In this document: in pieces, positions 3,068-24,232 of the stretch | Layout of the letters: every line of letters begins with the position of its first letter | How positions within the stretch are numbered: position 1 is the first letter of the stretch | Assembly (NCBI GenBank): GCA_024277855.1 | Contig: JAJRUJ010000104.1 | Location: 1 to 59,076 of the forward strand | Direction: 5' to 3' | Origin: Candidatus Zixiibacteriota bacterium | GTDB taxonomy: Bacteria > Zixibacteria > MSB-5A5 > WJJR01 > JAJRUJ01 | Length of the DNA stretch: 59,076 nucleotides | Translations under genes and position numbers: made by a program | The notes under the pieces: model-generated | What the model saw: only the letters and a program-made list of their open reading frames with translations | Databases searched by the model: none | Told to the model about the DNA's origin: nothing

Positions 3068-3094
3068 CGTATCAGGTGGTGTAAGGAGAGAATC

Positions 3095-3553: not shown

Positions 3554-3813
3554 AACGGCAAATCGAAGTGTTTGTTGCCGGATGCCCGCTTTGTAGCGAC
3601 GCAGTCGCGGTGGTCAAAGAGATTGCCTGTGACGATTGTGACATTACCGTCCTCAACATGCAGGATGGAGACACGGCAGAGCAAGCCCGCCGATATGGCA
3701 TCCATGCGGTTCCTGCGGTTGTCGTCGACGGGAAACTCGCTGATTGTTGTTCGCGTGGTCCAATCAACCCGGAAACGCTCAAAGCGGCGGATATCGGGCG
3801 GCCGCGTAGCTGA
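3550..3813 (+). CDS. Cysteine-rich thioredoxin-fold protein (CPLC) in the merR operon
   Basis: An 87-residue cytoplasmic protein translated from the ATGA overlap with merR, with GAGGAGG just upstream. It has a thioredoxin/glutaredoxin-like layout: strand VFVAG, active-site CPLC at 12-15, and the cis-proline loop HAVPAVVVDGK with P55. It also carries a second CDDC pair (27-30) and a vicinal CC (66-67), so six of 87 residues are cysteine. The fold family resembles the small thioredoxin-like proteins of the TM0996/MTH895 type. Being the only gene coupled to a mercury-type MerR suggests a role in thiol-metal binding or reduction. That is inference; a plain redox role is the alternative. Confidence 0.85.
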   Translation: MKRQIEVFVAGCPLCSDAVAVVKEIACDDCDITVLNMQDGDTAEQARRYGIHAVPAVVVDGKLADCCSRGPINPETLKAADIGRPRS

Positions 3814-3824
3814 AAACTGAAAAC

Positions 3825-3845
3825 GGCGGGTGAAAATCACCCGCC
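3825..3845 (+). terminator. Hairpin after the merR operon
   Basis: A perfect 9-bp stem (GGCGGGTGA / TCACCCGCC) with an AAA loop lies 11 bp after the stop of the thioredoxin-fold gene. It lacks a T-tract, so it may act as a weak or Rho-assisted terminator or as an mRNA 3' stabiliser. Confidence 0.5.
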
Positions 3846-4039
3846 CTGCACAATTGCGGATTCCTACCGTGTCGGCGCATGCCCCAAAGAGCACACGTGG
3901 GACATACGCCACGCACGAAACGCTTTGCACCACCGCTTTGAAAGCGGGTGCTTTACATCCACCTTTTTTTGTGCTACATCAATGCAATTGATAGATATAT
4001 TTGGTGTACTGTTGCGCAAGAGGATTAGGAGTATCTGTC

Positions 4040-4597
4040 ATGGCGCTGCCGATAAAGCCGGTAATATTTGTGATTGTGACCGCCGCTATGTGTTTCTGGT
4101 CACGCGCATCACTGTTTCGACCTCGCTCGCATGGGTTTTACCGCCTGTTTGCCTGGATAGCGATTCTACTGTTGGTGCTGGCCAATATTGAACATTGGTT
4201 TGCCAATCCATTCCGGATTGCTCAATTGATCTCCTGGTTCTTGTTGATCGTCTCAGGGGTCCTCGTTCTTTGTGGGGTCCGGCAGTTGAAAGTTGTCGGG
4301 AAAGTCGACCCCTCCCGGAAGGACAAATCGTTGTTTAGTATCGAGAAAACCACCGAGCTTGTCACCAGCGGCGTTTATGGCTATATCCGGCATCCGCTAT
4401 ATAGCTCACTATTATTCCTTACTTGGGGAGTTTTTCTTAAACATCCTACATGGATTAGCCTCATATTTGCATCTATCTCCACCGGGTTACTGATTATCAC
4501 TGCGAAGATCGAGGAAGTTGAGAATATCCGATATTTCGGCGATGATTATCGTAAGTACAAACAACACAACAGGATGTTTATCCCCTTTGTTTGGTGA
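4040..4597 (+). CDS. Integral-membrane methyltransferase (ICMT/PEMT-like)
   Basis: A 185-residue polytopic membrane protein. The ATG at 4040 follows an AGGAG at eight bases and begins directly at the first membrane helix. Hydrophobic segments appear at about 5-22, 33-50, 60-80 and 130-152. The segment GVYGYIRHPLYSSLLFLTWG (about 112-131) is the signature of isoprenylcysteine carboxyl methyltransferase/phospholipid methyltransferase-like proteins, and the C-terminal EVENIRYFGDDYRKYKQ carries the conserved cofactor-site Glu and Tyr. These enzymes methylate membrane-bound substrates with S-adenosylmethionine; the bacterial substrate is unknown. A 15-bp dyad ATCAAT-GCA-ATTGAT lies upstream at 3978-3992. 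Confidence 0.82.
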   Translation: MALPIKPVIFVIVTAAMCFWSRASLFRPRSHGFYRLFAWIAILLLVLANIEHWFANPFRIAQLISWFLLIVSGVLVLCGVRQLKVVGKVDPSRKDKSLFSIEKTTELVTSGVYGYIRHPLYSSLLFLTWGVFLKHPTWISLIFASISTGLLIITAKIEEVENIRYFGDDYRKYKQHNRMFIPFVW

Positions 4598-4761
4598 TAT
4601 TACGGGCCGACGTGGCCGCCGCGGCGAACCTGTACCCACATGGGTTGGCCCACCGAACGTAGGGCGGGTGATTCTCCACCCACCGATTCTTTCACGCGGA
4701 GGATGACGAGCCCTCCATAGGCGGGCGGGCATCCGCCCCACTACATCTCCAATATCCAGAA

Positions 4762-5463
4762 TTATTTCTTTGCGCCGAGGTAAAGTCCCCGTTCATTCAG
4801 GCCTTTGGAGTCGTAAGTGACAGATAGTCCGGCGGCGGTGAAAGCCGCCTCCATTTCGGCGCGGTCGAACAGGCCCAGTTCGTGACGCTCGACAAAATGC
4901 TCGGTGCCCTCGGGTGTGCCGATTAAGTAATGCAGGTCAAAATACGAAAGCCGTCCCCGCGACAGGCTGGTGCCGACGCGGGCGATCTTGAGGTCAGGTT
5001 CGTCAATCTGGAGTGAGTGCACTTTTCCGAAAATCCAGGTGTCCGGGGTGAACCAGGGTTCGACGATCAGTATGCCGCCGGGGGCGAGATGACGGGCCAT
5101 GCACGCTATTGCTTTGTTGAGATTTTCGATGGTTTTGACATAACCGATCGAGCTGAACAGGGAGACAACGATCTCGTATTGTCGACCGAGATCGAAATCG
5201 ATCATGTCGGCCTCGTAGAATTCCAAATCGGGGAAACGCTCGCGAGTAATATTCACGAATTCGGCTGAGAGATCCAGCCCCGCGCAAGTGAAATGTTCCC
5301 GCAGGTAGTTTAGATGCGTGCCGGTGCCGCAGGCGACATCGAGCAGACGAGACGATTTTGACCGCAACCGCTCGGGGATAAATGTCAGAAGTTTTTCGAC
5401 TTCGGCCGGATAATCTTTGAAAGAATAAATCCGGTCGTAGTACTTGGCGGTCTTGGTAAACAT
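4762..5463 (-). CDS. Class I SAM-dependent methyltransferase
   Basis: A 233-residue cytoplasmic methyltransferase. LLDVACGTGTHLNYL (about 40-54) is motif I, the glycine-rich SAM-binding loop. AGLDLS (about 61-66) supplies the acidic residue that binds the ribose. YEADMIDFDL is the post-II region and GGILIVEPWFTPDTW is motif III/post-III. The C-terminal DRAEMEAAFTAAGLSVTYDSKGL is the usual last alpha/beta unit. The N-terminal YYDRIYSFKDYPAEV resembles small-molecule N- or O-methyltransferases. The start has an AGGA six bases upstream. It is separated from the exonuclease gene by 48 bp on the same strand. Substrate unknown. Confidence 0.88.
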   Translation of the reverse strand: MFTKTAKYYDRIYSFKDYPAEVEKLLTFIPERLRSKSSRLLDVACGTGTHLNYLREHFTCAGLDLSAEFVNITRERFPDLEFYEADMIDFDLGRQYEIVVSLFSSIGYVKTIENLNKAIACMARHLAPGGILIVEPWFTPDTWIFGKVHSLQIDEPDLKIARVGTSLSRGRLSYFDLHYLIGTPEGTEHFVERHELGLFDRAEMEAAFTAAGLSVTYDSKGLNERGLYLGAKK

Positions 5464-5511
5464 CGTAAATCCTGCTCACCCTACCCCATGCGTAGCGAAC
5501 GGCCGAATCGG

Positions 5512-6399
5512 TTAGTTGTTCCTGTCGCCCAGGTCGACACCGATACCGAATGGTGAGTCCTCATCAGGAACACTCTCCCATTTGACAATGCGGTCGAGAC
5601 GGAAATGCCGCTCGGCCTTTTTGCTGTAGCAGTAGGCAACAAGATAGATATAGTCCTGCTGGGCAATGACTTCCTTGAGGCGAATTTTACGCTGCGAGTG
5701 GAAACCGGACGCATCGACATACTCGATGGCAATTGGCTCACGCCGCTTGACCGGCCCGCGCAGTGACGGCGGGAGCAGCAACAGGGGATCGGTGCGCTCG
5801 CCCTCAACGGTCCAGCCGGAGACTTTATCGATAAACTGCCCGACATTTGGTTGGTCATCGGGGAATAGGACTTTGAGAAAATTCATCAACACCCGATGAG
5901 TGGTGCGGCAGTCGCCGAGAGCGCGGTGAGCGTCGGGGGTCTTGATCTTATAATGCCGGGCCAGCGAGCCGAGCGAATTGGAGCCATGCTGGAAATAACG
6001 CCGGGCAATCTGCAAAGTGTCGACGATCTGGTTGCGGGGCAGCGACAGGCCTGCCAGTCGGAGTTCGGCGGTCAGGAACCCGAAATCAAACGGGGCGTTA
6101 TGCGCCACCAAAATTGCGCCGTTGATAAATTCGGCAAATCGGCCGGCCAACTCGGCAAAAGTCGGGCGACCCACCAGCATCTCGGCGGTAATCCCATTGA
6201 CCGCGGCCGCACCGGGAGAAATCGAACGTTGCGGATCGATCAATTCGGCGAAGGTATCGATTTCGGTCTCACCCCGGGTTTTCAGGGCGCCGAGTTCGAC
6301 AACCCGGTCACCAAAGGCCGGATACAGCCCGGTCGTTTCGACATCGATAAAAACCAAGTCGACCGCGGCCAGGGGGAGTGTGTGGTCGGGAATAGTCAT
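5512..6399 (-). CDS. DnaQ-type 3'-5' exonuclease fused to a WYL-like domain
   Basis: A 295-residue fusion. Residues 12-180 are a DEDDh exonuclease: FIDVETTG (Exo I Asp and Glu), HNAPFDFGFL (Exo II Asp) and DAHRALGDC (Exo III His and Asp) are all intact, as in the epsilon subunit of DNA polymerase III and the PolC exonuclease. Residues about 215-275 (EPIAIEYVDASG...RKIRLKEVI...YIYLVAYCYSKKAERHFRLDRIVKWE) match the WYL domain pattern, ending in the FRLDRI signature. WYL domains sense ligands or nucleic acid ends and are common in defence and repair regulators. The pair suggests a regulated nuclease in repair or degradation. No polymerase gene is nearby. The start is in a weak ribosome-site context. 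Confidence 0.88.
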   Translation of the reverse strand: MTIPDHTLPLAAVDLVFIDVETTGLYPAFGDRVVELGALKTRGETEIDTFAELIDPQRSISPGAAAVNGITAEMLVGRPTFAELAGRFAEFINGAILVAHNAPFDFGFLTAELRLAGLSLPRNQIVDTLQIARRYFQHGSNSLGSLARHYKIKTPDAHRALGDCRTTHRVLMNFLKVLFPDDQPNVGQFIDKVSGWTVEGERTDPLLLLPPSLRGPVKRREPIAIEYVDASGFHSQRKIRLKEVIAQQDYIYLVAYCYSKKAERHFRLDRIVKWESVPDEDSPFGIGVDLGDRNN

Positions 6400-6469
6400 T
6401 TTGGGGTGATCCGTGGCGGGGGCGATGATTTGGGCTGATTCAAAAAACTCGCCGACCGAAAATTGACCC

Positions 6470-6937
6470 TCAGAGTTGGGTCTTGAAAGAAACGATCATC
6501 CATGTGTTGCCGTTGAAAACCAAGGCCATCTTGTTATAAAACTGAACCCGAGTAGTCCGGTCGATAAAGGAGACCTCAACAGTTGCGGAATCGCCGAATT
6601 CTTCGGTATCACCGATGACGATCTGGGTTTTTAACCAGCGATCACGGAGTTTACCGTCGCCGGTCAATGAGGTCACCAACCGGCCCGGCCAGTCAATTTC
6701 CGCCCCGGTGGTGTCACTTTTCTCCCGGAGATCGTTCTGCACCGCTACCCAGGCGCGGTCGAAATCGATATTTTTTTAAACGATAGTGGTATCATCGCTG
6801 TAAAGCGCGGAAAAAAGATCCATCACCGTCGATTTGGGAGTGGGCCGATCCGCACATCCACCAATTGAAAGCGCCAGGATAAACCCTGCACAGACGAGCG
6901 CGGTTCCCCAAATCCTGCCATTATGTCGTTTACTCAT
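6470..6937 (-). pseudogene. Lipoprotein gene interrupted by an in-frame TAA
   Basis: Translating from the ATG at 6937 gives a lipoprotein signal peptide with lipobox IGGC at about residues 26-29, then PTPKSTVMDLFSALYSDDTTIV. A TAA follows at codon 54 (6778-6776). The same frame then stays open and continues KNIDFDRAWVAVQNDLREK...WMIVSFKTQL to 6470, with no shift in frame. The distal part resembles small NTF2-like/DUF4878-type lipoproteins, whose fold would need both halves. The TAA lies at an A7 tract; a GAA codon would restore a 155-residue protein. The 3' piece on its own could start only at GTG 6742 without a ribosome site. It is a nonsense mutation, an assembly error or, less likely, readthrough. 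Confidence 0.72.
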
Positions 6938-6980
6938 CGCGGTCAAAATACCTCCGTGTCGGACAGTCTGTCAAGTCAAC

Positions 6981-7011
6981 AAAAAGACGTCCGCCTATAA
7001 GAACGGACGTC
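6981..7011 (-). terminator. Intrinsic terminator after the PorV-like gene
   Basis: On the minus strand an 8-bp stem (GACGTCCG / CGGACGTC) with a 10-nt loop is followed by TTTTT. It lies 26 bp after the stop of the PorV-like gene and separates it from the interrupted lipoprotein gene. Confidence 0.8.
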
Positions 7012-7036
7012 GGATATATTCGTTTACGCGAAAATA

Positions 7037-8017
7037 TTATAGCCGGGCAGTCAGACCGATCCGATGGACCGTACCCAAATCGGAGAGTCGCCCGAGTGCA
7101 TAGTCAATCCGGATTTGATTGTAAAGCACACCGAGTCCACCGGAAAACCCCGACCAATCATCTGAGGACGAGCCGGTTTCGATATCGTGACGCCGGGAAG
7201 AAAACCCTGCCCGGAAATAAAACGGAGCGAGTGAGACCAGTTCGGAGCCGAGGGAAAAGCGGACGCCGTCATCGGTGGCTTTATTGATTTCGGCGGCCAA
7301 AATCAGGGGCAGTCCCTCCAACCGGTGCGACGCGCCCACGGCGATTTTGAGCGGGAGTTCGTCTTTGTGCGATTCGGTCAGTCCTTTCATCTGGGCGCCA
7401 AGGTTGGTCGCGGCGAGGCCTATCTGTGTCCGCCCATCATCGAGATGGTACATCAGGCCGATATCAGCGGCCAAACCCCAGGAGGTGGAGTCCTGGATCG
7501 ACTCCATAATCAGCCGACCGGTCAGACCAAGCGAGACGTTATCGGAAAACCGTTTGGCCCCGGTGAGGGCGAAGGCAAAATCGGAAGCATTGAATTCGCC
7601 GAGGACGGTACCGTCGATGTCGGTTTCGGTCAGATTGCCGAAACTGAGATACTGGATCGAAGCGCCGAGCCATGATTCTTCGCCAATCGGTTTGGTCAAT
7701 GCAAGAAATCCCGACTGAAGATCGGAAACCCAGGAATTATACGAGGCCGCGACATAGGTAGCCCGCACGGCCGGGGTAGCGGCTCCCCAGTCCGGGGCAA
7801 GACGCATACCGGTGATCCCCGCGGGATTGTGGTACAACGCGGCGTGATCGTCGGCAAGAGCCACATAGGCATTCCCCATCGCCGCTGCACGTGCGCCGAC
7901 ACCGATTTTGAGGAATGAGTAGCCGGCAGTACCGGCATTATCATCAATCGCCCCGGCCGGAGTGGCGGCAAGGATGAGCACAGAGATCGCAACAAGGGCA
8001 AACAACATTCTTTTCAT
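7037..8017 (-). CDS. PorV/PorQ-family outer-membrane protein (UPF0164-like)
   Basis: A 326-residue beta-barrel protein. The ATG at 8017 is used because GGAAGG sits six bases upstream and MKRMLFALVAISVLILAATPAGA is a clean signal peptide. The N-terminal mature segment AGYSFLKIGVGARAAAMG, followed by YVALADDHAALYHNPAGI, is the hallmark of PorV/PorQ proteins. In type IX secretion PorV carries exported cargo to the attachment machinery. Alternating hydrophobic strands run to the C-terminus, with GLGVLYNQIRIDYAL near the end as the last barrel strands. It has its own promoter (8137-8165) and terminator. The family is clear; a role in exporting the sorting-domain proteins of this window is inference. 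Confidence 0.88.
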   Translation of the reverse strand: MKRMLFALVAISVLILAATPAGAIDDNAGTAGYSFLKIGVGARAAAMGNAYVALADDHAALYHNPAGITGMRLAPDWGAATPAVRATYVAASYNSWVSDLQSGFLALTKPIGEESWLGASIQYLSFGNLTETDIDGTVLGEFNASDFAFALTGAKRFSDNVSLGLTGRLIMESIQDSTSWGLAADIGLMYHLDDGRTQIGLAATNLGAQMKGLTESHKDELPLKIAVGASHRLEGLPLILAAEINKATDDGVRFSLGSELVSLAPFYFRAGFSSRRHDIETGSSSDDWSGFSGGLGVLYNQIRIDYALGRLSDLGTVHRIGLTARL

Positions 8018-8136
8018 CGGATACCTTCCGTCAGCATCACTATCACACATGACCTGCCGTCATCGTTGTCGGTGGCCGGTCGGTTGTTATCGGGTTTATA
8101 CGGTCGAGTAAAGGCCTTGTGCCCGATTTGTCTTCC

Positions 8137-8165
8137 TTTCTAACGTTCATCGGCAGGTTTGTCAA
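8137..8165 (-). promoter_or_regulatory. Promoter of the PorV-like gene
   Basis: Minus strand TTGACA (8165-8160), 17-bp spacer, TAGAAA (8142-8137). The predicted start near 8130 gives a leader of about 113 nt before the ATG at 8017. Confidence 0.6.
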
Positions 8166-8272
8166 CTTCCCCGCCCTTTTACATACTCCGTAAGTAAGGC
8201 AATCTTCCCCAATATTGGTGCCGGCCACCGCAAACCGGCGGTTTATCGGCAAAAAATGTACCCAACGGCAAG

Positions 8273-8770
8273 TTACCAGCCCTTGACCGTGCGGTCAACG
8301 ATCTCCTCGGTCAATTTGGCAATTGCCCGCGTCTGGCCGTCCAGTTCAATCTCGGTGTCGGCGGAATAGACGCCCCAGCCCCGCAACGCGGCTTCGCTCC
8401 AAAGTGGTTCCCCCCCGTCCCTCCGCACGAGTTCGGCCTTGATCGTGATCTCGACGAGGTACTCCTGAACCGACTCGTCGGCCTGATACGTATACGCCGA
8501 GCGCTTATAGGTCAAAACATCCCCTTTGAGCAGGCCCTCAGCGCGGGAGGGATCGGTCACGTCGATGATATTTTCGGCAACCAGGCCGTTAGTTATCCCT
8601 TCGGTAAGTTGTTCGGCCAGCCCAAATTCGGGCGTCTGGTTTTTAAATAGCGGGATACCAATCGATTTGACCAGCGGCTGCCGACCGGACTTGAACGAAT
8701 AAGGCGAACAGCCCGCCAGGATGAAAAATACCAGGAGAGCGGCACAAAGTGGCCGCGACGGAAGCTTCAT
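8273..8770 (-). CDS. lptE: LptE-like LPS-assembly lipoprotein
   Basis: A 165-residue outer-membrane lipoprotein. The signal peptide ends in lipobox LAGC (Cys about 21), followed by SPYSFKSG. The segment SIGIPLFKNQTPEFGLAEQLTEGITNGLVAEN is the conserved LptE core, in which a strand is followed by the long helix. The later ADESVQEYLVEITIKAELVRRDG gives the paired strands. LptE plugs the LptD barrel and inserts lipopolysaccharide into the outer leaflet, so it implies an LPS-type outer membrane. Its ATG overlaps the hutI stop (ATGA), so it is translationally coupled to an unrelated catabolic gene, an odd pairing. LptD is not in the window. Confidence 0.88.
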   Translation of the reverse strand: MKLPSRPLCAALLVFFILAGCSPYSFKSGRQPLVKSIGIPLFKNQTPEFGLAEQLTEGITNGLVAENIIDVTDPSRAEGLLKGDVLTYKRSAYTYQADESVQEYLVEITIKAELVRRDGGEPLWSEAALRGWGVYSADTEIELDGQTRAIAKLTEEIVDRTVKGW

Positions 8771-10029
8771 GCGACAACCCTCCCCTTTTTGATTACCCGC
8801 CGCACCAGGTTGACGCCAAAATGGTACGGCACCTGGCGGTAGTTATCGGCGTCCCAGACGACCAGATCGGCCTGTTGGCCGATTTCGACCGAACCGAGCC
8901 GGTCGCCACGGCCAATCGACCAGGCGGCGTTGGTGGTGGCGGCGCAGAATGCTTCCGCGGGTGTCATTTTATAGGTCACGCAGGCCAGGTTCATCATCAG
9001 CTGCATCGACTCAGACATGCACGAGCCGGGATTACAGTCGGTCGCCAAAGCGAGCGGGACACCAGCTTCAATCATCTGCCGCACCGGCGGTCGCTGAGGC
9101 ATATCGAGGAAATATCCCGCCCCCGGCAGGAGGACACCGAATGTCCCGGCGACGGCAAGCGCGGCGATGCCATCTGAGGAGACGTATTCGAGATGGTCAG
9201 CCGATATCGCACCCATCTCGGCCGCAAGTGACGCGCCTTCCTGATTGGTCAGTTGATCGACGTGGAATTTGAGTTGTAGCCCAAGTTCGCGGGCCTTTTG
9301 CTGCACCGTGCGGGCCTGTTCCCGGTTGAACACGCCCTGTTCGTAAAAGACATCGGAAAACTCGGCCAGTTTCCGCTCGGCGACGGCGGGAAGGATTTCA
9401 GCGGTGATCAGACGGACATAGCCCCCGTGATCGTCGCGGTATTCGGGCGGAAATTCATGCCCGGCCAATACCGTCGGCACCAGGTCGAGGACATGCCGCT
9501 CAGCCAGAGCGGCAATGACCTCGAGCATCTTGATTTCATCATCAACACTGAGGCCATAACCGCTTTTGGCCTCGACAGTGGTGGTACCAAATTTGAGCAT
9601 AGTATCAAGACGGGGCAAGGCCAGATTGACTAATTGTTGGTGGTCTGCCGCGCGGAGCGCCTTGACCGAGGAGACAATTCCGCCCCCGGCGGCCGCGATT
9701 TCGGCGTATGATTTGCCTAATGCGCGCATTTCAAATTCGAGTTCACGGGTCGCGGCAAAAACCGGGTGGGTGTGCGCATCGACCAGCCCCGGACTGACCA
9801 GCCGTCCTCGGGCGGAGAGTTCGACCGAACCGGGTTGTAAGGTGACCTGCGCTTCGGGATCGGCACCGACCCAGACAATTATGCCGTCGAGCGCGGCCAC
9901 AGAGCAACCGTTGATAATCTTGAGGCGGGAAAGATCGGCGGCCCTGCGCGGGGACAACCGTCCCCCGGCCATCGTCAGGAGTTCGCCGCAGTCGGTGAGG
10001 ATAAAGTTAGCTTCGATTTTCCCCGGCAT
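8767..10029 (-). CDS. hutI: Imidazolonepropionase
   Basis: A 420-residue amidohydrolase that opens 4-imidazolone-5-propanoate to N-formimino-L-glutamate, the third step of histidine degradation. The metal-binding DAHTHPVFA (about 84-92), the substrate loop SGYGLSVDDEIKML, the histidines of VLAGHEFP and FHVDQL, and ATDCNPGSCMSESMQLMMNLAC are all in place, and length matches the family. The rest of the hut pathway (hutH, hutU, formiminoglutamate hydrolase) is absent from the window. It starts at an ATG close to a TATAAT-containing promoter and overlaps lptE by four bases at its 3' end. Confidence 0.95.
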   Translation of the reverse strand: MPGKIEANFILTDCGELLTMAGGRLSPRRAADLSRLKIINGCSVAALDGIIVWVGADPEAQVTLQPGSVELSARGRLVSPGLVDAHTHPVFAATRELEFEMRALGKSYAEIAAAGGGIVSSVKALRAADHQQLVNLALPRLDTMLKFGTTTVEAKSGYGLSVDDEIKMLEVIAALAERHVLDLVPTVLAGHEFPPEYRDDHGGYVRLITAEILPAVAERKLAEFSDVFYEQGVFNREQARTVQQKARELGLQLKFHVDQLTNQEGASLAAEMGAISADHLEYVSSDGIAALAVAGTFGVLLPGAGYFLDMPQRPPVRQMIEAGVPLALATDCNPGSCMSESMQLMMNLACVTYKMTPAEAFCAATTNAAWSIGRGDRLGSVEIGQQADLVVWDADNYRQVPYHFGVNLVRRVIKKGRVVA

Positions 10030-14674: not shown

Positions 14675-17600
14675 TTATTTAAGCAGGATCATCTTGCGTG
14701 TTTGCAGGTTTTCGCCGGCGCGAAGACGATAAAAATACATCCCCGATGCAACAGTGCGGCCGTCGGCGGTGAGCCCATCCCAGACAATGACATGACGCCC
14801 CGCGGTCCGATATTCGGCGACCGGCGTAGCGACTTTCTCCCCTCGGGTATTAAATATGACTAACTCGACCTCAGCCGGGGCCGGCAGAATAAAAGTGATG
14901 ACGGTCCGGGCATTAAAGGGGTTCGGATAGTTTTGCATGAGTTCGAACTGTCTCGGTGGGCCATTATCGGCCAGACCGACCCAACTGCCGAGGATTTCGC
15001 GCAGTTCCGAGGCGGACTGCCGGTTGGGGCAAAAATCAATGGCGGCAAGCATCGAACCGATGATGTCACCGCTCAATGATGACAACTCATCAAAAAACGC
15101 CTGTTCGCGCGCCAGCGGCGCGGTACGAACTGCCGACCAAAATTCGAGAATCGGGCAAATATCGAGCGAGTCGATATCGCCGTCGCCGTCGGTATCAGCA
15201 TAGGTCGCGGCCGAATCCGGCCACAGGTTGGCCGGCTGTGCCGAGAACGATTCGTAGGCCAGCGGTCGCGGCGGCCCGGTGGTTGACCAAAACCGTCCGA
15301 GGGGAAGAACATCCCGCTCATCGACCTCGCCGTTGTCATCAGCATCACCGGGGAATACGCCCGGGCCGGTGACAAATTTGAAATCGTAGTCATCAACCGG
15401 AGAACCTTCCTCCAGACCGTCAGCGTCGCCGTCGAGATGGTTATAAACGGTGTCGGTAACATAGCGCGATTGGATCCGGACAAACAGCGTATCGAAAGCG
15501 GGCCAAAACTCATTACCCGAAAACGTGGCCAGCTTGCCGACGGTTTGGCATGAGCCGGCCAGATTAGCGCCGGTCCGCGCCGAGCGGACAACGACCGAGG
15601 TGTCGGTATCATCGACTCGGATCGGTTCTGAAAACTCGAACTGGAGCGGCGCGTTGATCAATACATCATTCTCCAGATTGGCCGGATCGGTACTGACCAC
15701 TACCGGTGCGTCCTGCTCGGGAATACCTCGGCCGGTGAGGAGAATCATCGTATCCCGAACGACCGGATCGTTGGTGAAAACTCGAACCGACCCGTCGTAA
15801 GTTAGACGGTCCGGCGGCCCGAAATTCACCGGGAAAGTGTAGGCGGTCGATGGGTCGACAATAACGTCGGTGACCGGAGTGATGCTGAACCCCTCACCCA
15901 CAACCCTCAGCGAATCAATCGTCAGGGTAAACCCGCTCTCGGTCGAGGCGGTGTTGACCACCCGCGCGGGGAGACTCGCCGAGAATCGGGTGTCGACTGA
16001 ATCGAAGTCAATCGTGAATGGATTCAAAGCCAGGATAGAGGTCCCCTCATGCTCGAAGACAATAAGGTTCGTGTCGGCAAAACCGAGGGTGGAATCGACG
16101 GCAAACAAACTGACCGTATACTGTCCCGACGGGAGGTCATCGGACGGCGTGAGCCATAATTGGTGGGGCACGGCGGCCAGGGCGGCAAGCGGCTCAATCA
16201 GCTCTGTTTTCAATTCGCCCCGATAGGGAGTCGGCTCGACTTTCACACTGAAGATGATCGGATTCGGATAGGGCAGTCCTTGCAACGTATCGACCGTCAG
16301 GGGGTAGATAGTTGTCTTACCCGTCTGAAAAGGTTCACCCACCCGGGCATCAAATCCGCCGACGACGACACAGCCTGACCGCTTCACTGCGATGCCCTCG
16401 CCGCAGCCGGACGAAACCGACAGGTTAACATCATATTCACCGGCAAATCGATACGTATGAACGGGGCTGGTTTCGGTGGATGTTTCACCGTCGCCAAATT
16501 CCCATAACCAGCTTGATGGTTCATTGACCGACCGGTCGACGAATTCATAAGTAAACGGAGCAAATCCGACCGATGACGGGCAATCATAATCGGCAATCGG
16601 GACATCACGAGCAACAATGGTCTCCGGCAAAGGCATCACATCGACGCCGCACTCATGGGTGATTTCCAATTCCGGTTCGTACTCACCGACAGCGGTGTAG
16701 GTATGGCTCACATTCCGGCCGCTGGCGCTGTCACCGTCGCCGAACCGCCAAAGATATTCTGAAATTTCTCCGGTCGATGTTGCGGAGAAGGCGATTTGTA
16801 ACGGGAGGCAGCCGTCGGTCAGATCGGCGGCGGGAACGGCAGACGGCCGCTGCCGAACGCCGATATAATCCTGATTGACCACCTCGCCGGTACCACAGAG
16901 GCCGGTGGCGATTAATTGGACTGAAAAGGTATCGCCATATTCGTAAGTATGAACCGGGTTCCGTTCAGTCGATTGATTGTTATCGCCAAAATCCCAACGG
17001 AATGACGTAAGTGATTCCTCCGCAACCGCATAGAAACGCACTTGAAACGGCGTACAGGCGGGTTCGCCACCCAGTGAATCCGCATCGGCCGACGAGACAA
17101 TCGACAGGACGGGAACCCTCTCGGCCTGGATGTATTCACTTTTGATTGTGGTCGTCGGGCCGCAGATATTGGTGACGGTCAGTTGGACGGTGTGATGACC
17201 GGCGGTAGTGTACGTATGGGTCGGCGCCATATCCTGCGATTGGTTACCGTCCCCGAAGTCCCAAAGATACTCGTCAGCCGTGCCGCTGACTGTCGGAGTG
17301 AAGGTGACCGCAAAAGGAACGCAGCCGAAGGTCGTGTCCGCATTGAAATCAACCTGCAGATTGCCAAACACTGAAACATAATCTTCGCGGACGAGCGTGT
17401 CGCTGTCGAAATCGCCGTCGGCGATCAGCGTGACCGAATAGACCCCGGATGTGAGATATTGGTGTGTGGGATTTTTTTCAGAGGAGAATTCACCATCGCC
17501 GAAATCCCATAACCATTGTTCGTCGATGCAACTCGATAGATTAGTGAAATCGACCGACAGCGGCCGACAGCCGGTCAGCACCGTCGCGGAAAAATCGGCC

Positions 17601-18721
17601 TGTTTGTTGTCATCGATAAATTCCAATGCCCCGAGATCGGGCAGCGAGTAGGCGTGACGGGGATTACCGTCCAAATCGCGGGTGGTCAGCGTATCGATGG
17701 CCAGGGCCAGCCCTTTATTGATCGCGGGCGAGACGCATTCGAGCCGGTAATCACCGTTCGAAAAATCGACCAGATACGGGATGTCGTTGATGATGCCGGT
17801 CCGGTCGGTGAAAGTACCCGAATAGCTGCCGCCCTGATTCCCCCAAAACAATGTATTGGACAAGATCGGGTTGTTGCTGATACTGCCGTTGGACAGTCCG
17901 TCACCGCCGCTGTTATAGGCAATGATGTTATTACGGATGACGGCGTCGCCGGCATCATAGTCCAACTCGATCCCGGCACCGCCGCCGGAGAATCCATTAG
18001 TGTTATCGATGATGGTATTATTGATAATCAACGGCTGGGCAAACCAACCGACGTAAATCCCCGCCCCGGCGGAAGCGGTATTATGAACGATGACGTTATT
18101 ATAGATTAGCGGATCGCCCGATTGAACATAGATGCCGCCCCCGGTGGTTTCGCCGGTCGGCGAAAGACGGTTGTTGATGATAATATTATTGCGGATGATC
18201 GGATCTTCGTAGGCGATGGACACCGCCCCGTCATTGGCCAGCCCCTCGCAACTCGGACAGGTGATGGTGAATCCGTCGACGACACTGCGGGTTTCCTGCT
18301 GGGTTTCCCCTGGTTTAGCGGCACCGGCGCTTTGGAAAATAATCGGCGCGCCTTTGTTCGAACCGTCGATAATCGTGACATCCGGCCCCTGTTCGGCGAG
18401 CAGGAGCACGTTCCACCAGGGCATATAGATCGATTCATTGTACGTGCCCGGCAGGACTAACACAACATTGTCCTGCTGGGAGTAATTAACACCCCATTGG
18501 ATTGTCCGATACGGGGCGATGCGCGAGGATGCCCCGCTGCGATCGGTGCCGCCGATGGAGACATAGACCGTATCGGGTCCGAATTCGGGAGCATTGAGTG
18601 GATCGGAAACCGCCAGGTTAACGTTTGTTTCGGCAACTTTGTCGGCTGCCCCGGCCAAGCCGGCCAGGCAGGCCATGACAATGGCCGACGCATAAAAAAT
18701 CCAAAATATTCGTTTCATCAT
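14675..18721 (-). CDS. Giant secreted protein: beta-helix, five PKD domains, dockerin, sorting domain
   Basis: A protein of about 1348 residues. A signal peptide (MKRIFWIFYASAIVMACLAG) leads into a right-handed beta-helix of the DUF1565 type (about 50-365; motifs PGTYNESI, DGSNKGAP and repeated NNxIxxN turns). Five PKD repeats follow, with W-D/R/E-FGDG-type motifs near 407, 490, 579, 661 and 743, then an Ig-like region. A type I dockerin-like pair of Ca-binding loops lies near 1125 (DADDNGEVDERD) and 1178 (DTDGDGDIDSLD). The C-terminal ~85 residues (QNYPNPFN... to RKMILLK) form a type IX-like sorting domain. A cohesin lipoprotein gene lies immediately upstream. It is probably a surface adhesin or scaffold. 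The exact start among three close codons is uncertain. Confidence 0.9.
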   Translation of the reverse strand: MMKRIFWIFYASAIVMACLAGLAGAADKVAETNVNLAVSDPLNAPEFGPDTVYVSIGGTDRSGASSRIAPYRTIQWGVNYSQQDNVVLVLPGTYNESIYMPWWNVLLLAEQGPDVTIIDGSNKGAPIIFQSAGAAKPGETQQETRSVVDGFTITCPSCEGLANDGAVSIAYEDPIIRNNIIINNRLSPTGETTGGGIYVQSGDPLIYNNVIVHNTASAGAGIYVGWFAQPLIINNTIIDNTNGFSGGGAGIELDYDAGDAVIRNNIIAYNSGGDGLSNGSISNNPILSNTLFWGNQGGSYSGTFTDRTGIINDIPYLVDFSNGDYRLECVSPAINKGLALAIDTLTTRDLDGNPRHAYSLPDLGALEFIDDNKQADFSATVLTGCRPLSVDFTNLSSCIDEQWLWDFGDGEFSSEKNPTHQYLTSGVYSVTLIADGDFDSDTLVREDYVSVFGNLQVDFNADTTFGCVPFAVTFTPTVSGTADEYLWDFGDGNQSQDMAPTHTYTTAGHHTVQLTVTNICGPTTTIKSEYIQAERVPVLSIVSSADADSLGGEPACTPFQVRFYAVAEESLTSFRWDFGDNNQSTERNPVHTYEYGDTFSVQLIATGLCGTGEVVNQDYIGVRQRPSAVPAADLTDGCLPLQIAFSATSTGEISEYLWRFGDGDSASGRNVSHTYTAVGEYEPELEITHECGVDVMPLPETIVARDVPIADYDCPSSVGFAPFTYEFVDRSVNEPSSWLWEFGDGETSTETSPVHTYRFAGEYDVNLSVSSGCGEGIAVKRSGCVVVGGFDARVGEPFQTGKTTIYPLTVDTLQGLPYPNPIIFSVKVEPTPYRGELKTELIEPLAALAAVPHQLWLTPSDDLPSGQYTVSLFAVDSTLGFADTNLIVFEHEGTSILALNPFTIDFDSVDTRFSASLPARVVNTASTESGFTLTIDSLRVVGEGFSITPVTDVIVDPSTAYTFPVNFGPPDRLTYDGSVRVFTNDPVVRDTMILLTGRGIPEQDAPVVVSTDPANLENDVLINAPLQFEFSEPIRVDDTDTSVVVRSARTGANLAGSCQTVGKLATFSGNEFWPAFDTLFVRIQSRYVTDTVYNHLDGDADGLEEGSPVDDYDFKFVTGPGVFPGDADDNGEVDERDVLPLGRFWSTTGPPRPLAYESFSAQPANLWPDSAATYADTDGDGDIDSLDICPILEFWSAVRTAPLAREQAFFDELSSLSGDIIGSMLAAIDFCPNRQSASELREILGSWVGLADNGPPRQFELMQNYPNPFNARTVITFILPAPAEVELVIFNTRGEKVATPVAEYRTAGRHVIVWDGLTADGRTVASGMYFYRLRAGENLQTRKMILLK

Positions 18722-18775
18722 ATTTGTCACCCGCCTCGGCGGGCGTCCATGCTAATGTTTACCGGCAGGATTATC

Positions 18776-19597
18776 TTAGGGGATAACGACGATCTCGCCC
18801 GTTTCAAAAACTAATTGCGACATTTCAGGAATTGGCTGCCCGGTCTCGTCATCGAGTCTGGCTCGTTCTGCCTCAAAATTCAGGGTGGTCGATCCGACGG
18901 AGGCGCCGGTGAATAAGAGCGTGGCCAGCCGCCCGGAACCGTCGATGCCTTCGACATTTTTCTGTTCGTTTTGGGTCAGGGTAACGCTCACCGCGACATA
19001 ACCATCTTCTGCCACGGCAACAAAAAACGCTCCATCACCCATAAAGTCACCCGCGAACGCCCCGGCGAAGTCGAGGAGATTGGCATCGTACTGAATCCGG
19101 AAAGCGGCACCGAACAGTCCGGTTACATTATAGATGTCAACTCCGACGGTGGCCTGCGCTTCGCCGGCCAGCGAAATTTCCTGATACAGCGGTGAGCAGC
19201 GCAACATCGAGACAACCGGCTCCATGAAAATCGTCGAGACAACGGTCGTTCCGGAGGCCACATCGACCGTGTCGAAGCCGACGTAGAGCGCCTGGCCGGC
19301 GGCGGAAGACGCGGTGAGGCGAAACTCAATATTCTCCCCCGGCCTCAGGCCCAGGGTGTCGATAATCATCCCCCGGGAAATTACCGGCTCTTCCCAGAGC
19401 GTATCGTTGTCATTGAGATAGACAATGCGGAGTTCGGCGTCGGTAATCAGGCCGGTTAGCGCGGTCGGCTTAAAATTAATCTCCATGGAGACCGGTACAG
19501 ACAGCGCCGGTCCGGTTGGTCCGCTCGAACAGGCAAGCAACCCGGCCGCCGCCAGGGCCAGTAGTACACCGCCAAGGATTACTCGTATTCTTATCAT
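18776..19597 (-). CDS. Cohesin-domain lipoprotein
   Basis: A 273-residue outer-membrane lipoprotein. The signal peptide ends in lipobox GLLAC (Cys about 23) and a short SSGPTGP linker. Residues 30-130 form an Ig-like beta domain. Residues about 140-273 match a cohesin: GLFGAAFRIQYDANLLDFAGAF, GYVAVSVTLTQNE, the GSGRLATLLF strand, and GSTTLNFE. Cohesins bind dockerins with calcium. The next gene downstream, 54 bp away, encodes a dockerin protein, so the two probably form an anchor and client at the cell surface. GGGGAG precedes the ATG by nine bases. The domain call rests on the conserved strand pattern, not on a search. Confidence 0.82.
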   Translation of the reverse strand: MIRIRVILGGVLLALAAAGLLACSSGPTGPALSVPVSMEINFKPTALTGLITDAELRIVYLNDNDTLWEEPVISRGMIIDTLGLRPGENIEFRLTASSAAGQALYVGFDTVDVASGTTVVSTIFMEPVVSMLRCSPLYQEISLAGEAQATVGVDIYNVTGLFGAAFRIQYDANLLDFAGAFAGDFMGDGAFFVAVAEDGYVAVSVTLTQNEQKNVEGIDGSGRLATLLFTGASVGSTTLNFEAERARLDDETGQPIPEMSQLVFETGEIVVIP

Positions 19598-19963
19598 ATG
19601 TATTGTCTCCCCAATACCGACAAAAAAATCGAGGCCGGTCGAATGTCAAGGTCTATTATCGCACTGCCGACTGCCTGGTTCCAGCCTTGTCTCACTTTCC
19701 CGATCCCGGTTAGCACGCCGGTCATTTGAGATCATAAGGTGTATTTACGATAAGCACAAGTCCGATATTCCAACCCGCCCCCCGCCGGCCGGCCAATTCT
19801 CCGATATGTGTTCATGTACGAAGTTGTCTATTTGGTTCTTTGCCCGAGATTGAAATTATGCCGACTGACACGTCAGTTAATGCTGTTTTCTTCGACCGCG
19901 GCAACGATCATTTTGTTGACAGTGCCGAGCGATCGGTGTAGGTTCTGCGGGAGGGGAAGGACC
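19598..19963 (+). other. Divergent intergenic region of 366 bp
   Basis: It separates the cohesin gene (minus) from the kinase gene (plus). The right end holds the kinase promoter. No convincing minus-strand promoter was found, apart from a TTGACA near 19650 without a matching -10. No coding signal. Confidence 0.5.
19916..19944 (+). promoter_or_regulatory. Kinase promoter
   Basis: TTGACA (19916-19921), 17-bp spacer, TAGGTT (19939-19944). The block GTTGACAGTGCCG resembles GTTGACAGTACCG at the promoter two genes on (21681), suggesting shared control. Confidence 0.6.
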
Positions 19964-21559
19964 ATGATCGGCCAAACCATCGACATCTATCAGATTCTGG
20001 AAAAAGGCGGCGAGGGCGGCATGGGTGTGTTCTATAAAGCCCTGGATACCCGTCTCGACCGGATTGTCGGCCTGAAGACCCTGCACCCGGAACTGGTTTC
20101 GGATCCGGAATTCCGTCAGAAACTGGAGCGCGAGGCCAAATCGCTGGCCCGCCTGAACCACCCCAATATTGTGACTATTTTCCAGTACCTGATCCATGAT
20201 GGCCTGCATTTCATCGTGATGGAATATGTCGACGGCCGGACACTTTCCGATGTTATCGCCGAGCAGGGGCCGTACTCGTTCGCCGAAGCCGCCCACCTGA
20301 CCCTGCAAATTTTGGACGCAATCGGTTATGCACATAAAAACGACGTCGTCCACCGCGACATCAAGCCGTCGAATATCATGGTCACCGCCGAGGGCGTCGT
20401 CAAAGTGACCGATTTCGGGATTGCCAAACTGCTCGACTCAAAACAAAAAACTCGGACCGGCCAGGGGGCGGGATCGTTGTTTTATATGTCGCCGGAGCAA
20501 ATCCAACACGGCGACATTGACGGGCGAACCGATATTTATTCGCTGGGGATCACCCTTTTTGAGATGATCACGGGAACCCGGCCGTTTACCGCCGAATCCG
20601 AGTTTTCGATCATGAAGAAGCATCTCGAAGAACAACCCCCGGCGCCGTCACATTTCGATTCATCGATCAACCGGGTCGTCGATGAACTGATCTTACACGC
20701 GATGCAGAAAAACCCGGCCGATCGCTTTCCGACCGCCGATGATTTCGCGCAGGCAATAAAAGACACCCTGACCTTTACCGACACCGGCAGTCGCGCCCCG
20801 GTTCGCCGTCGATCCAAGGATGAGGACAAGACCGCGTCGATGTCCGCAAAGCGATCGGGGTCATCGTCGCCTGCTCCCCCACCTTCCCGACCGTTCTGGA
20901 AATGGGTGGCCTACCCGTTGTTGGTGGTCCTGGTCGCGGTGGCGGCGTATGTATACTGGCCAAAAGGCGAACCGGAGCCGGTCCGGACAGTCAACCTGCC
21001 GATTGACACGGTGACCGTAGCCGATACCACTCCGGCTGCCATAGTGGATAACCCGGTGGTTGACACCCCGGTAATCGATAAGAAACCGGCAGAGGACATT
21101 ACTCCCCCACCGACCGAAGCATTGGAGATCGACGTCGATCCGTTTAACCAACGCTCGCGGGTGACCGGGGTCTGGGTTGACGGCCGGCGGGTGTCCGGCA
21201 GCATCCCGTTTAAACAAACGGGTCTCTCACGCGGCAGACATTGGGTGACCATCGAAACGACATACGGGATGCTGACCGATACAGTGACCTGGGCGGGCAA
21301 AGACCGGCGGCTGGCTTTTTTCATCAATGAGGCGAAGAGTCGCCTGTCGGTGGCCGCGAAAAATATCGAATATGCCGACATCTGGATTGATGATCGCAAA
21401 ACGGGCCATTTCACTCCCCATCAAATCAGAGAGATTGTAGTTGGGCCGCATAAAGTCGAAGTTAAACGCGAAGGTTACCGGGCGCTCGGCGGTCCGAGAA
21501 TCATCCGGGTCGATCCTTCGGGGTCGCAACGTGTCGAATTCGACATGCGGCCTGAATAG
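19964..21559 (+). CDS. Transmembrane Ser/Thr protein kinase with PEGA domain
   Basis: A 531-residue Hanks-type kinase. The ATG at 19964 is chosen because GAGGGGAAGG precedes it and the kinase fold begins at once. The kinase has the P-loop GGEGGMG, catalytic Lys38 (VGLK), HRDIKPSN (Asp about 131), DFG (about 149) and the MSPEQ activation end. A proline-rich juxtamembrane segment leads to one TM helix (about 309-329, WVAYPLLVVLVAVAAYVYW). The outer part has a Pro/Thr/Asp-rich linker and about 180 residues ending in a PEGA-like beta region (IWIDDRKTGHFTPHQI, GPHKVEVKREGYR). It would sense the envelope and phosphorylate cytoplasmic targets. It heads the lipoprotein and barrel cluster. Confidence 0.93.
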   Translation: MIGQTIDIYQILEKGGEGGMGVFYKALDTRLDRIVGLKTLHPELVSDPEFRQKLEREAKSLARLNHPNIVTIFQYLIHDGLHFIVMEYVDGRTLSDVIAEQGPYSFAEAAHLTLQILDAIGYAHKNDVVHRDIKPSNIMVTAEGVVKVTDFGIAKLLDSKQKTRTGQGAGSLFYMSPEQIQHGDIDGRTDIYSLGITLFEMITGTRPFTAESEFSIMKKHLEEQPPAPSHFDSSINRVVDELILHAMQKNPADRFPTADDFAQAIKDTLTFTDTGSRAPVRRRSKDEDKTASMSAKRSGSSSPAPPPSRPFWKWVAYPLLVVLVAVAAYVYWPKGEPEPVRTVNLPIDTVTVADTTPAAIVDNPVVDTPVIDKKPAEDITPPPTEALEIDVDPFNQRSRVTGVWVDGRRVSGSIPFKQTGLSRGRHWVTIETTYGMLTDTVTWAGKDRRLAFFINEAKSRLSVAAKNIEYADIWIDDRKTGHFTPHQIREIVVGPHKVEVKREGYRALGGPRIIRVDPSGSQRVEFDMRPE

Positions 21560-21681: not shown

Positions 21682-21710
21682 TTGACAGTACCGTACTGTC
21701 GGCCTAATTA
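21682..21710 (+). promoter_or_regulatory. Promoter with internal dyad before the TPR/CsgG-like gene
   Basis: TTGACA (21682-21687), 17-bp spacer, TAATTA (21705-21710). An inverted repeat GACAGTA-CCG-TACTGTC overlaps the -35 and fills most of the spacer, so a repressor or activator site is likely. Confidence 0.65.
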
Positions 21711-21735
21711 CGAGCAAATCACTGGAGGACAGAAT

Positions 21736-23073
21736 ATGCCGAGTGACGTAAAGATAAAATTAGTCGCATTGTTGTTGCCTGCCTCGATGATGCTCGGGTG
21801 TGCCGCGACCGGCGGTGGACCGGGCGGCGCCCAGGAAATGATTAATCGGGGAAACTACGATCAGGCCGCCGCGACGCTGTTGGTGCATACGACACAAAAT
21901 CCAACGGATGCCGCCGGTTTCCGCCTGTTGGGCATCGCCTACTATCATCTGCAAGATTATGTGAAAGCCGGTGAAAACCTGGCCCGGGCGATCGAGTTGA
22001 ATCCAGACGACGCGGTCGCGCACTTCTATTCGGGTTTGCAGGCCGAACGAACCGGGGACATCGCCCGCGCAATGTATGAGTATCGGAGTTTTATCACATT
22101 GCGCGGGAAGGGCAAGCTGGCCCAACGGGCCGAGCGCCGGATCGAAGACCTCCGCGCACAGGATGCGGCGGAGTTTGCCCGGACGGCGATTGCCGGTGAG
22201 CGAAACATCGCCCCGGGTGAATTCTCGGATTCCACCATCGGGGTCGTGTATTTCAACGGCCGTTTTTTATCCGATGCCCTGCGACCGCTGAGCACCGGGC
22301 TGGCCGAGTTGATGGCCGCCGATCTCTCGAAGGTCGGAGCATTGCGAGTCGTCGAACGGATGCGGCTGAACCAGATCCTCACCGAATTGCGATTGTCGCA
22401 TACGGGGGCCTTCGATACGTCGACTGCTCCACGCCTGGGAAAACTACTCGGCGCAGCGCATGTACTGGGCGGCGACATTACCGAACTACCCGGTGAGAAA
22501 CTGCGGATCGACCCCAACCTGGTGGACACCAAAAGTGGCGAGGTCGACACGCCCGACGAGGCAGTCGGCGAATTCGCCCGGGTGATCGAGCTGGAAAAAC
22601 AGGTAGTTTTCGCCACATTGGAAAAACTCGGGATAACACTGACGCAAGCCCAGCGGGATTCGATTGCGGTCCCGCCGACGTCGTCATTTATGGCGTTTTT
22701 AATGTACTCGCGGGGGTTGGAATTTTTGGACCAGGGGAAATTGAAGGAGGCCGCTGCTGAATTCGAGCACGCGGTACAAACCGATCCGACCTTCAACGAG
22801 GCAAAACAGCAGGCGATGGTGACCGGTGTACTGCTGGAGACACCGCCTACCGGGACACTCGGTGAATTTGAAACCCGGGCTGAGGCCGATTCTTTCATGC
22901 GCGGCCGCACCAACAACACGACGGGCGCGTTGGCGGCAACCGAGCAACGGCTGGGGTTTCTGCCCGAGGCCCAGCCAGAGCGCGATGAACCATATACCGC
23001 ACCATTCGGCAGTCAGGCAACGACCGGTTCGGTCATAATCGAGGGGAGATTCGACGATGACGGTACAAAATAA
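21736..23073 (+). CDS. TPR lipoprotein with CsgG/FlgO-like domain
   Basis: A 445-residue outer-membrane lipoprotein. The ATG at 21736 follows GGAGG; the signal peptide ends in lipobox MLGC (Cys about 22). TPR repeats span about 35-140 (YDQAAATLL...AAGFRLLGIAYYHLQDY...). A CsgG-like alpha/beta domain follows: IGVVYFNG, LSTGLAELMAADLSKVGALRVVERMRLNQILTELRLSHTG, LGKLLGAAHVLGGDIT. One more TPR unit lies at about 330-365 (FLDQGKLKEAAAEFEHAVQTDP). The CsgG fold forms secretion channels or binds envelope partners. It overlaps the next gene by 17 bp, so the two are co-translated. It may be the outer-membrane partner of the kinase; this is inference. Confidence 0.82.
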   Translation: MPSDVKIKLVALLLPASMMLGCAATGGGPGGAQEMINRGNYDQAAATLLVHTTQNPTDAAGFRLLGIAYYHLQDYVKAGENLARAIELNPDDAVAHFYSGLQAERTGDIARAMYEYRSFITLRGKGKLAQRAERRIEDLRAQDAAEFARTAIAGERNIAPGEFSDSTIGVVYFNGRFLSDALRPLSTGLAELMAADLSKVGALRVVERMRLNQILTELRLSHTGAFDTSTAPRLGKLLGAAHVLGGDITELPGEKLRIDPNLVDTKSGEVDTPDEAVGEFARVIELEKQVVFATLEKLGITLTQAQRDSIAVPPTSSFMAFLMYSRGLEFLDQGKLKEAAAEFEHAVQTDPTFNEAKQQAMVTGVLLETPPTGTLGEFETRAEADSFMRGRTNNTTGALAATEQRLGFLPEAQPERDEPYTAPFGSQATTGSVIIEGRFDDDGTK

Positions 23074-24232
23074 GCTTACGGTAGTGAGCGGCCGTTTATT
23101 GATCGGCACTCTTCTGGTATTAGTGCTGGTTTTCGGCAACCAGGCAGTGGCGCAGGTGATCCCCGATGCTCCGGCACGGGTCCGACAATCGCTGGTCTAT
23201 TTGACCTGGGACCTCGACGGCGACTCGACGACCGCCTCGATTTCTGAGTGGATTATGCCGGTTTCCGGGATGATACCCTTAAGCCCCGAAATGGAACTGC
23301 GGTTTTTTACCGCGCTGGCCGGCGCAACATCATCAGACGACGAATTTGAGCGTGACCTTTCCGGGCTGACCGACACGCGCTTCCAACTGGTGCGGGCGTT
23401 GGCCGATCAGCGGTTTTTGGTTTCGGTCGGCATAAATCTGCCGACCGGCAAGAAAAAACTCAATACCGATCAATTCGAGGTCTTGCGGGTTCTCTCCGCC
23501 GAACAGTTTAATTTCCCGATCAAGACATTTGGTGAAGGATTCGGGGCCTTTGGTGAATTCCTCGGTGCCGCCCCTGCCGGTAATTGGGTATTGACCGGCG
23601 GTATCGGGGCGTTTCTGAACGGCTCGTATGAACCAGGCAATAATGGCATTTCATATCGTCCGGGATCGCGGATTTACCTCACCGGTGCGGCCGATCGGCC
23701 GTTGGGTGCCGACGGACGATTTCGGATTGACGGGGTCGTTGTTATTGCCGGCACCGACCAGGCCGAGGTGAACGATGTATTCAAAGACGGTGCGCAAATC
23801 GACTTTTCCGCGGTCGCCACACAACGCTGGGGAATCTGGCAGGGCGCGGCGCGGGCCCGGACGATCCTGCGCGGTAAAGACGAGCGGTTGACCGAGGACG
23901 GGGTGATGGCCGGAGAATTACACTCCTCATCGGGCAGTGAACTCCGCCTGTTCGGTCAACTGGGCCGGGAACTTTCTGATAAACTCACCGGTTTTGTCGA
24001 CCTGAGCGGGAAATTTTCAGCGGCAAACGATTATCCGGTCGGCGATCCGGGCTATGAGGGGGCGGTCTCTTTGTTTGGCCTCGGCGGAAAAATCGCCGGG
24101 ACATTGTCCGAACGCACAACCGCCTCGTTGGGAGTACGGAAGTGGTTTGGCTCAGCCGACGAGGGCGGACAAAACGAAGCACTCGATCTGGGCGGTTGGG
24201 AAATCATGCAGAGTCTGACCATTTCATTTTGA
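23057..24232 (+). CDS. Outer-membrane beta-barrel protein
   Basis: A 391-residue protein. The signal peptide is MTVQNKLTVVSGRLLIGTLLVLVLVFGNQAVAQ, with cleavage about residue 33. The mature part is made of short amphipathic strands with aromatic ends (FLVSVGINLPTGKKKL, WVLTGGIGAFLNGSYE, RIYLTGAADRPLG, ELRLFGQLGREL). It ends in LTISF, whose terminal Phe is the usual signal for barrel insertion by BamA. The segment resembles transporter or putative-porin barrels, but no named family is assigned. It overlaps the CsgG-like gene by 17 bp, so it is likely a partner of it. Confidence 0.8.
   Translation: MTVQNKLTVVSGRLLIGTLLVLVLVFGNQAVAQVIPDAPARVRQSLVYLTWDLDGDSTTASISEWIMPVSGMIPLSPEMELRFFTALAGATSSDDEFERDLSGLTDTRFQLVRALADQRFLVSVGINLPTGKKKLNTDQFEVLRVLSAEQFNFPIKTFGEGFGAFGEFLGAAPAGNWVLTGGIGAFLNGSYEPGNNGISYRPGSRIYLTGAADRPLGADGRFRIDGVVVIAGTDQAEVNDVFKDGAQIDFSAVATQRWGIWQGAARARTILRGKDERLTEDGVMAGELHSSSGSELRLFGQLGRELSDKLTGFVDLSGKFSAANDYPVGDPGYEGAVSLFGLGGKIAGTLSERTTASLGVRKWFGSADEGGQNEALDLGGWEIMQSLTISF

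Follow-up and report, generated by a model that had tools for sequence, protein, structure and literature searches.

The cohesin–dockerin interaction is best known for holding cellulosomes together, and the non-cellulosomal cohesins catalogued so far mostly lack an assigned partner. What, then, is the role of a single-cohesin lipoprotein whose gene adjoins that of a protein carrying both a dockerin and a type IX sorting tail? We addressed this question in a stretch of DNA of 59,076 nucleotides (the window), which is contig C94 of an assembly of 3.07 Mb and which is most closely related, among named genomes, to ‘Candidatus Zixiibacteriota’ MAGs (MAG DeMMO3_3, locus L133, ranks first, with 74% identity over the dockerin region in a scan of named genomes). 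Here, we report the domain identities of the two proteins, the type IX genes that accompany them, and the conserved linkage of the pair together with its specificity for one dockerin class. The analysis suggests that the two proteins probably form a dedicated cohesin–dockerin anchoring pair, in which a lipid-anchored cohesin would hold cargo exported by the type IX system on the cell surface.

Domain architecture of the two adjoining proteins

The cohesin lipoprotein (LIPO) is encoded on the minus strand at positions 18776–19597 and comprises 273 amino acids, as delineated by Pfam, a fold model and an alignment of homologues. Its N-terminus is a hydrophobic leader ending in LLAC-S (lipobox LLAC; 19529–19597, minus strand), of which Cys23 is nearly invariant in the homologue alignment. 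Two domains follow on the same strand, namely an N-terminal β domain (residues 33–127; 19217–19501), recognizable by its strands in the model and without a Pfam family, and a cohesin domain (residues 131–272; 18782–19207). The latter is identified concordantly by the Pfam Cohesin family PF00963 (28.6 bits against a cut-off of 24.1, residues 149–251), which is the only family retrieved in LIPO by the Pfam scan, by a profile of 26 LIPO homologues that matches Acetivibrio scaffoldin cohesins among PDB sequences at 3e-12 over the whole C-terminal domain, and by the predicted fold. Indeed, all matches listed by Foldseek for the AlphaFold2 model (pLDDT 89) against the PDB are cohesins, the best at 2.9e-9 and with TM-scores by target of up to 0.80, and the non-cellulosomal Archaeoglobus cohesin 2xdh ranks near the top (target-normalized TM 0.80). 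Pfam delimits one cohesin stretch in LIPO, and the only protein of this genome with two cohesin matches is encoded on contig C16. Because there is a single cohesin per lipoprotein, one-to-one anchoring is favored over a scaffold; the ‘surface scaffold’ put forward in the first-pass annotation is thus not supported, and LIPO looks like a one-socket anchor rather than a multi-cohesin scaffoldin.

The PKD/dockerin/tail protein (PKDDOC) is encoded at 14675–18721, also on the minus strand, and counts 1348 amino acids from an ATG at 18721, leaving exactly 54 bp between the two genes. Pfam and NCBIfam searches resolved it, from the N-terminus and always on the minus strand, into a DUF1565/right-handed β-helix region (residues 57–299; 17825–18553; PF07602 and PF13229), five PKD repeats (residues about 371–789; 16355–17611; five stretches of PF18911) whose W-x-FGD motifs are found at 405, 487, 576, 658 and 740, a Big_5 Ig-like domain (15428–15715; PF13205), a dockerin of the ‘DERDVLPLG’ class (15158–15352; PF00404, with loop residues conserved in alignments), and a type IX type A sorting tail (14687–14929; TIGR04183). 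A helical linker, visible both in the model and in the alignment, joins the dockerin to the tail (residues about 1201–1262; 14936–15121). FlgD_ig was also matched in PKDDOC by Pfam, and no match was obtained there for a cohesin. The reading of the locus made initially from the DNA letters, a C-terminal cohesin in a lipoprotein encoded 54 bp from a gene for five PKD repeats, two dockerin loops and a sorting domain, is therefore borne out in its coordinates and features, both the Cohesin and the Dockerin families that it proposed to search for scoring over their cut-offs.

The sorting tail obtained 37.2 bits with TIGR04183 (cut-off 23) and 22.4 bits with Pfam PF18962, below the cut-off of 27, and Por_Secre_tail was matched in 26 of the 29 dockerin-tail relatives scanned. 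The type IX machinery was assessed via the SprA family, the C25 peptidases and the PorV/PorQ family: genes for the first two were found in the genome of the window and in the eight relatives examined, while a PorV/PorQ-family component is encoded in the window itself (7037–8050, minus strand; NF033709, 169.7 bits against 90). Three more type IX sorting-tail matches occur in the window (45907–45987, 48693–48803 and 52200–52322, minus strand), without a dockerin of the PKDDOC class.

Type IX cargo has its sorting tail removed after export, and cohesins bind dockerins with calcium, tight binding being typical of the known pairs. Most likely, the type IX system would export the PKD/β-helix protein through its C-terminal tail, after which the tail would be cut off and the dockerin kept, placing the latter near the new C-terminus. 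There, the dockerin would bind the single cohesin of LIPO with calcium, and LIPO, presumably a surface-exposed, lipid-anchored lipoprotein of the outer membrane, would retain the cargo on the cell. It is plausible that PKDDOC has the two retention routes initially proposed for it, dockerin and sorting tail; as the tail is cleaved after export, it may in fact be the dockerin that retains the protein.

A dockerin class distinct from the common one

The Pfam match of the PKDDOC dockerin is modest (PF00404, 24.1 bits against a cut-off of 22.9), and the same family was matched by Pfam in all 29 dockerin-tail relatives scanned. Its two calcium loops, DADDNGEVDERD (15311–15346, minus strand) and DTDGDGDIDSLD (15161–15196, minus strand), start 50 residues apart, versus about 35 in the other dockerins of the genome, and both are conserved at the calcium positions in two alignments, with the consensus GDxNNDGxVDExDVLPxG ... 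YADADGDGxVDxxD; D1126, D1137, D1176 and D1187 of PKDDOC belong to the loops. When the dockerin profile was compared with PDB sequences, the best match was dockerin 2y3n_B (2.4e-6), and the weaker matches included calmodulins, in keeping with the EF-hand-like nature of the loops. The dockerin part of the PKDDOC model has a pLDDT of mostly 93–98 and consists of a helix, a short helix and a helix; a fold search of this small, loop-rich domain with its enlarged spacer against the PDB gave a best E-value of 1.1 and no dockerin among the matches listed.

A second dockerin type is found in the genome, namely the common C-terminal ‘NPVDVVLLVNYVYK’ (NPVDVV) class, which is distinct from that of PKDDOC, the profiles of the two classes matching each other weakly or not at all. 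None of the 36 ORFs of the genome with an NPVDVV-class dockerin adjoins a separate cohesin lipoprotein gene. The pairing is therefore restricted to one dockerin class rather than common to the dockerins of this genome, and the idea that a dockerin of whichever class sits by a cohesin here was rejected. In the window, an ordinary C-terminal NPVDVV-type dockerin is carried by a putative metalloprotease of the MXAN_6640 family (31244–32971, minus strand), again without an adjoining cohesin gene. The first-pass annotation had also proposed the absence of carbohydrate-active enzymes. This part agrees with the other dockerin proteins of the genome as far as the top-25 Pfam families among the 33 proteins of the dockerin set are concerned (eight further families lie outside that list), which include no glycoside hydrolase and whose enzyme domains are peptidases, although according to Pfam CBM26 modules occur in some relatives from other phyla.

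Linkage of the pair in Zixibacteria and in other phyla

Conservation of the gene pair had been suggested as a check, and the pairing is strongly kept both in Zixibacteria and across phyla. LIPO homologues were found in 56 of 118 Zixibacteria relatives (E ≤ 1e-3), and, on every contig of sufficient length, the strong single-domain homologues are followed by a gene for a PKD/dockerin/tail protein. The dockerin neighbor of LIPO is convergent in one family (f8), its similarity being limited to the C-terminal dockerin/tail part. A dockerin-plus-tail query in six genomes retrieved one or two copies of the dockerin part in each, and only a single copy overall did not adjoin LIPO; the remaining, numerous matches correspond to the sorting tail alone.

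In the whole set, the dockerin class is represented by 48 copies in 36 of the 118 Zixibacteria genomes. A LIPO match lies within 6.5 kb of 26 of these copies, and six further copies adjoin divergent cohesin lipoprotein genes detected with a broader local profile. For five others we infer linkage because both genes run into contig ends, bringing to 37 of 48 the copies beside a cohesin lipoprotein gene, including these five across contig breaks. About nine copies are orphans without an adjoining cohesin gene, which counts against the anchoring reading, and two more cannot be judged. Most orphans occur in genomes with a LIPO elsewhere, of which they could be further clients. At the genome level, the dockerin class co-occurs with LIPO in 30 of 36 genomes (P = 2e-7, relatedness of the genomes being ignored). 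At one locus (L222, G024:C1:3292632-3292859), an in-frame TAG breaks the gene for a PKDDOC-class dockerin while the adjoining cohesin lipoprotein gene is intact; the broken frame is possibly a pseudogene or an assembly error.

In named genomes, LIPO alone as query gave no matches, and the dockerin alignment retrieved 79 loci, distributed over Zixibacteria, Poribacteria, Latescibacterota, KSB1, Marinimicrobia, Calditrichaeota and Electryonea, as well as Ignavibacteria, Eisenbacteria, Balneolia/Salinivenus and other Bacteroidota records. Cohesins were sought around the dockerin genes with a profile built on Zixibacteria LIPO homologues that had been gathered by similarity and not by position. 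Of 78 loci, 16 have a cohesin in the dockerin ORF itself, 22 have one among the genes that follow and 10 among those that precede, these categories overlapping. The LIPO profile found none in 34 loci, 13 of which are cut by contig ends; three of the 34 (L136, L177 and L194) have a LIPO nearby, behind a split frame or a CsgG/barrel gene pair, and a broader profile recovered a few more cohesins among them. Genes adjacent to the dockerin gene encode a cohesin in 32 of 134 cases versus 4 of 446 for genes farther away (odds ratio 35, P = 5e-18), a P value that is optimistic because several loci share one genome, which leaves the spread over phyla unaffected.

Pfam recognizes a cohesin in only 21 of the 37 cohesin proteins selected with the local profile, a further point against the anchoring reading. 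Most of the cohesin proteins of other phyla that are separate and encoded in an adjacent gene have a lipobox-like leader, as judged by eye, and the partners in Calditrichaeota, Electryonea and related loci are lipoproteins of 160–175 amino acids that contain little besides a cohesin. The N-terminal cargo of the dockerin proteins varies between lineages. In most of the loci that can be tested, which span about ten phyla, a cohesin is thus predicted at the sequence level either in the adjacent gene or in the dockerin protein itself. Under the anchoring reading, lineages would retain the dockerin, the tail and the cohesin lipoprotein and exchange the N-terminal cargo.

The occurrence of a cohesin in the same protein, observed in 17 of 82 dockerin ORFs, also invites another reading, in which copies assemble into surface fibers or sheets through cohesins and dockerins present on one protein or on linked proteins, LIPO being only the first, anchoring unit. 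The genome of the window encodes one protein with both Pfam domains (C93:3874-4854), Salinivenus lutea (L171) partly combines the two domains in a single protein, and fused proteins would permit within-chain contact or chain-to-chain polymerization. In Zixibacteria, however, cohesin and dockerin reside on separate proteins, and PKDDOC, which has no cohesin match, could only cap a chain; we consider such self-assembly very unlikely as the role of the pair.

Conserved neighbors and comparison with known systems

Upstream of LIPO, the plus strand of the window encodes a divergently oriented Ser/Thr protein kinase with a PEGA domain (19808–21559), identified with Pfam and found near the pair in several relatives, followed by a CsgG-TPR lipoprotein (21682–23073; PF03783) and a putative outer-membrane β-barrel (23057–24232). 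The last two are conserved neighbors by synteny. The CsgG-TPR lipoprotein matches about half of the CsgG profile, and no curli subunit gene was recognized near its gene. The barrel-like protein has a C-terminal Phe and a signal-like N-terminus and retrieved neither a Pfam family nor a PDB relative. The same neighbor families lie by the pair in other Zixibacteria, often as an operon-like run of CsgG, CsgG, barrel, LIPO and dockerin protein, and homologues of the barrel-like gene stand next to a CsgG-TPR lipoprotein gene at loci L144, L149, L152, L153, L158, L159, L170, L176, L177 and L194. Gene order thus indicates that both genes (21682–24232) belong to the conserved neighborhood of the pair, a feature missed in the first-pass annotation. 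Outside Zixibacteria, the CsgG/barrel pair accompanies cohesin and dockerin in only one Poribacteria locus (contig L170), in the order dockerin protein, cohesin lipoprotein, CsgG-TPR and barrel. In Zixibacteria and on this contig, the CsgG-TPR lipoprotein and the barrel-like protein may help to place the pair. Equating either of them with a known lipoprotein-flipping factor is unsupported, the TPR_Slam match being weak (E-value 0.0044) and the barrel having no relative in the PDB. A second CsgG-TPR/barrel/LIPO-like cluster is found elsewhere in the genome (L132, C20:20000-37584, genes at positions 2380–9656 of the locus), with a LIPO-like head fused into a protein of 1609 residues and no PKDDOC-class dockerin nearby.

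The neighborhood bears on two further explanations. Cohesin and dockerin might not bind each other and be merely calcium-linked structural modules, the dockerin acting as a rigid spacer before the tail, with genes kept together because they serve the same surface structure as the CsgG-TPR and barrel proteins. The conservation of the latter and the lack of a significant PDB fold match for the dockerin model are consistent with this view, but the cohesin–dockerin linkage persists outside Zixibacteria, where the CsgG/barrel genes flank it in the single Poribacteria locus, and the second dockerin class of the genome shows no pairing; we regard the absence of mutual binding as unlikely. Alternatively, LIPO could be a transient assembly or export helper, capturing the dockerin while type IX export is under way or immediately afterwards and later letting the cargo go, a scheme compatible with one gene pair, one socket and neighbors that could be export parts. 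Known cohesin–dockerin pairs, however, bind tightly and with calcium as a rule, and in several genomes additional putative dockerin clients are encoded at a distance from the LIPO gene, for which a receptor role fits better, making a helper function quite improbable.

The anchoring pair can be compared with several known systems. With the clostridial cellulosomes (Acetivibrio, Clostridium and Ruminococcus scaffoldins), it shares the two domain families, as judged from the cohesin fold match and the dockerin Pfam match. However, their scaffoldins carry tandem cohesins, whereas here a single cohesin resides on a lipoprotein, the cargo is a non-enzymatic PKD/β-helix protein of the Gram-negative type IX kind, and the dockerin, whose loops are far apart, lies inside the protein ahead of a sorting tail. 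An ordinary cellulosome was rejected as a reading in view of the single cohesin per anchor, the peptidase-type enzymes on the other dockerin proteins and the lack of a tandem scaffoldin beside the pair. The Archaeoglobus fulgidus cohesin (PDB 2xdh) likewise lies outside a cellulosome and is among the closest folds but is archaeal, and neither a type IX tail nor pairing with a lipoprotein is known to us for it. The curli secretion channel CsgG shares its domain with the neighbor at 21682–23073, which differs by being a TPR-CsgG lipoprotein with about half the profile and without a recognized curli subunit gene nearby. In the Cloacimonadota, a cellulosome-like system has been proposed for Ca. 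Stygibacter, in which a scaffoldin of 3,755 residues bears tandem cohesins together with the sorting domain, and enzymes carry the dockerins (PMC8542988). That system, from a diderm lineage that is likewise uncultured, also brings together cohesin, dockerin and C-terminal sorting domain, whereas in the present pair a single protein has both the dockerin and the sorting tail, and a small lipoprotein provides the cohesin. It is the only close precedent that we found in the open-access literature, where we encountered no description of dedicated cargo with a dockerin and a type IX tail paired with a cohesin lipoprotein. The cohesin and dockerin families themselves are known.

One dockerin class has a clear, genetically linked partner in many phyla, which makes the partner assignment testable by in vitro binding. 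If the anchoring reading holds, type IX cargo would have, besides attachment via the sorting tail, a second route to stay on the cell in mostly uncultured lineages. We give about an even chance to the broader proposal of a display system common to about ten phyla (the Fibrobacteres-Chlorobi-Bacteroidetes group and neighbors), combining varied type IX cargos bearing this special dockerin class with lipid-anchored cohesins and, in Zixibacteria and Poribacteria, with a CsgG-TPR/barrel placing machinery. The small single-cohesin lipoproteins (about 170 residues) would suit protein display work. Finally, the small protein encoded at C93:3874-4854 (L018) has a cohesin and a C-terminal dockerin that each exceed the Pfam cut-off, and similar dockerin proteins of roughly 280 residues, with cohesin-looking N-terminal parts that gave no cohesin match, are encoded on C128 and C129; these proteins are possible self-assembling surface subunits.
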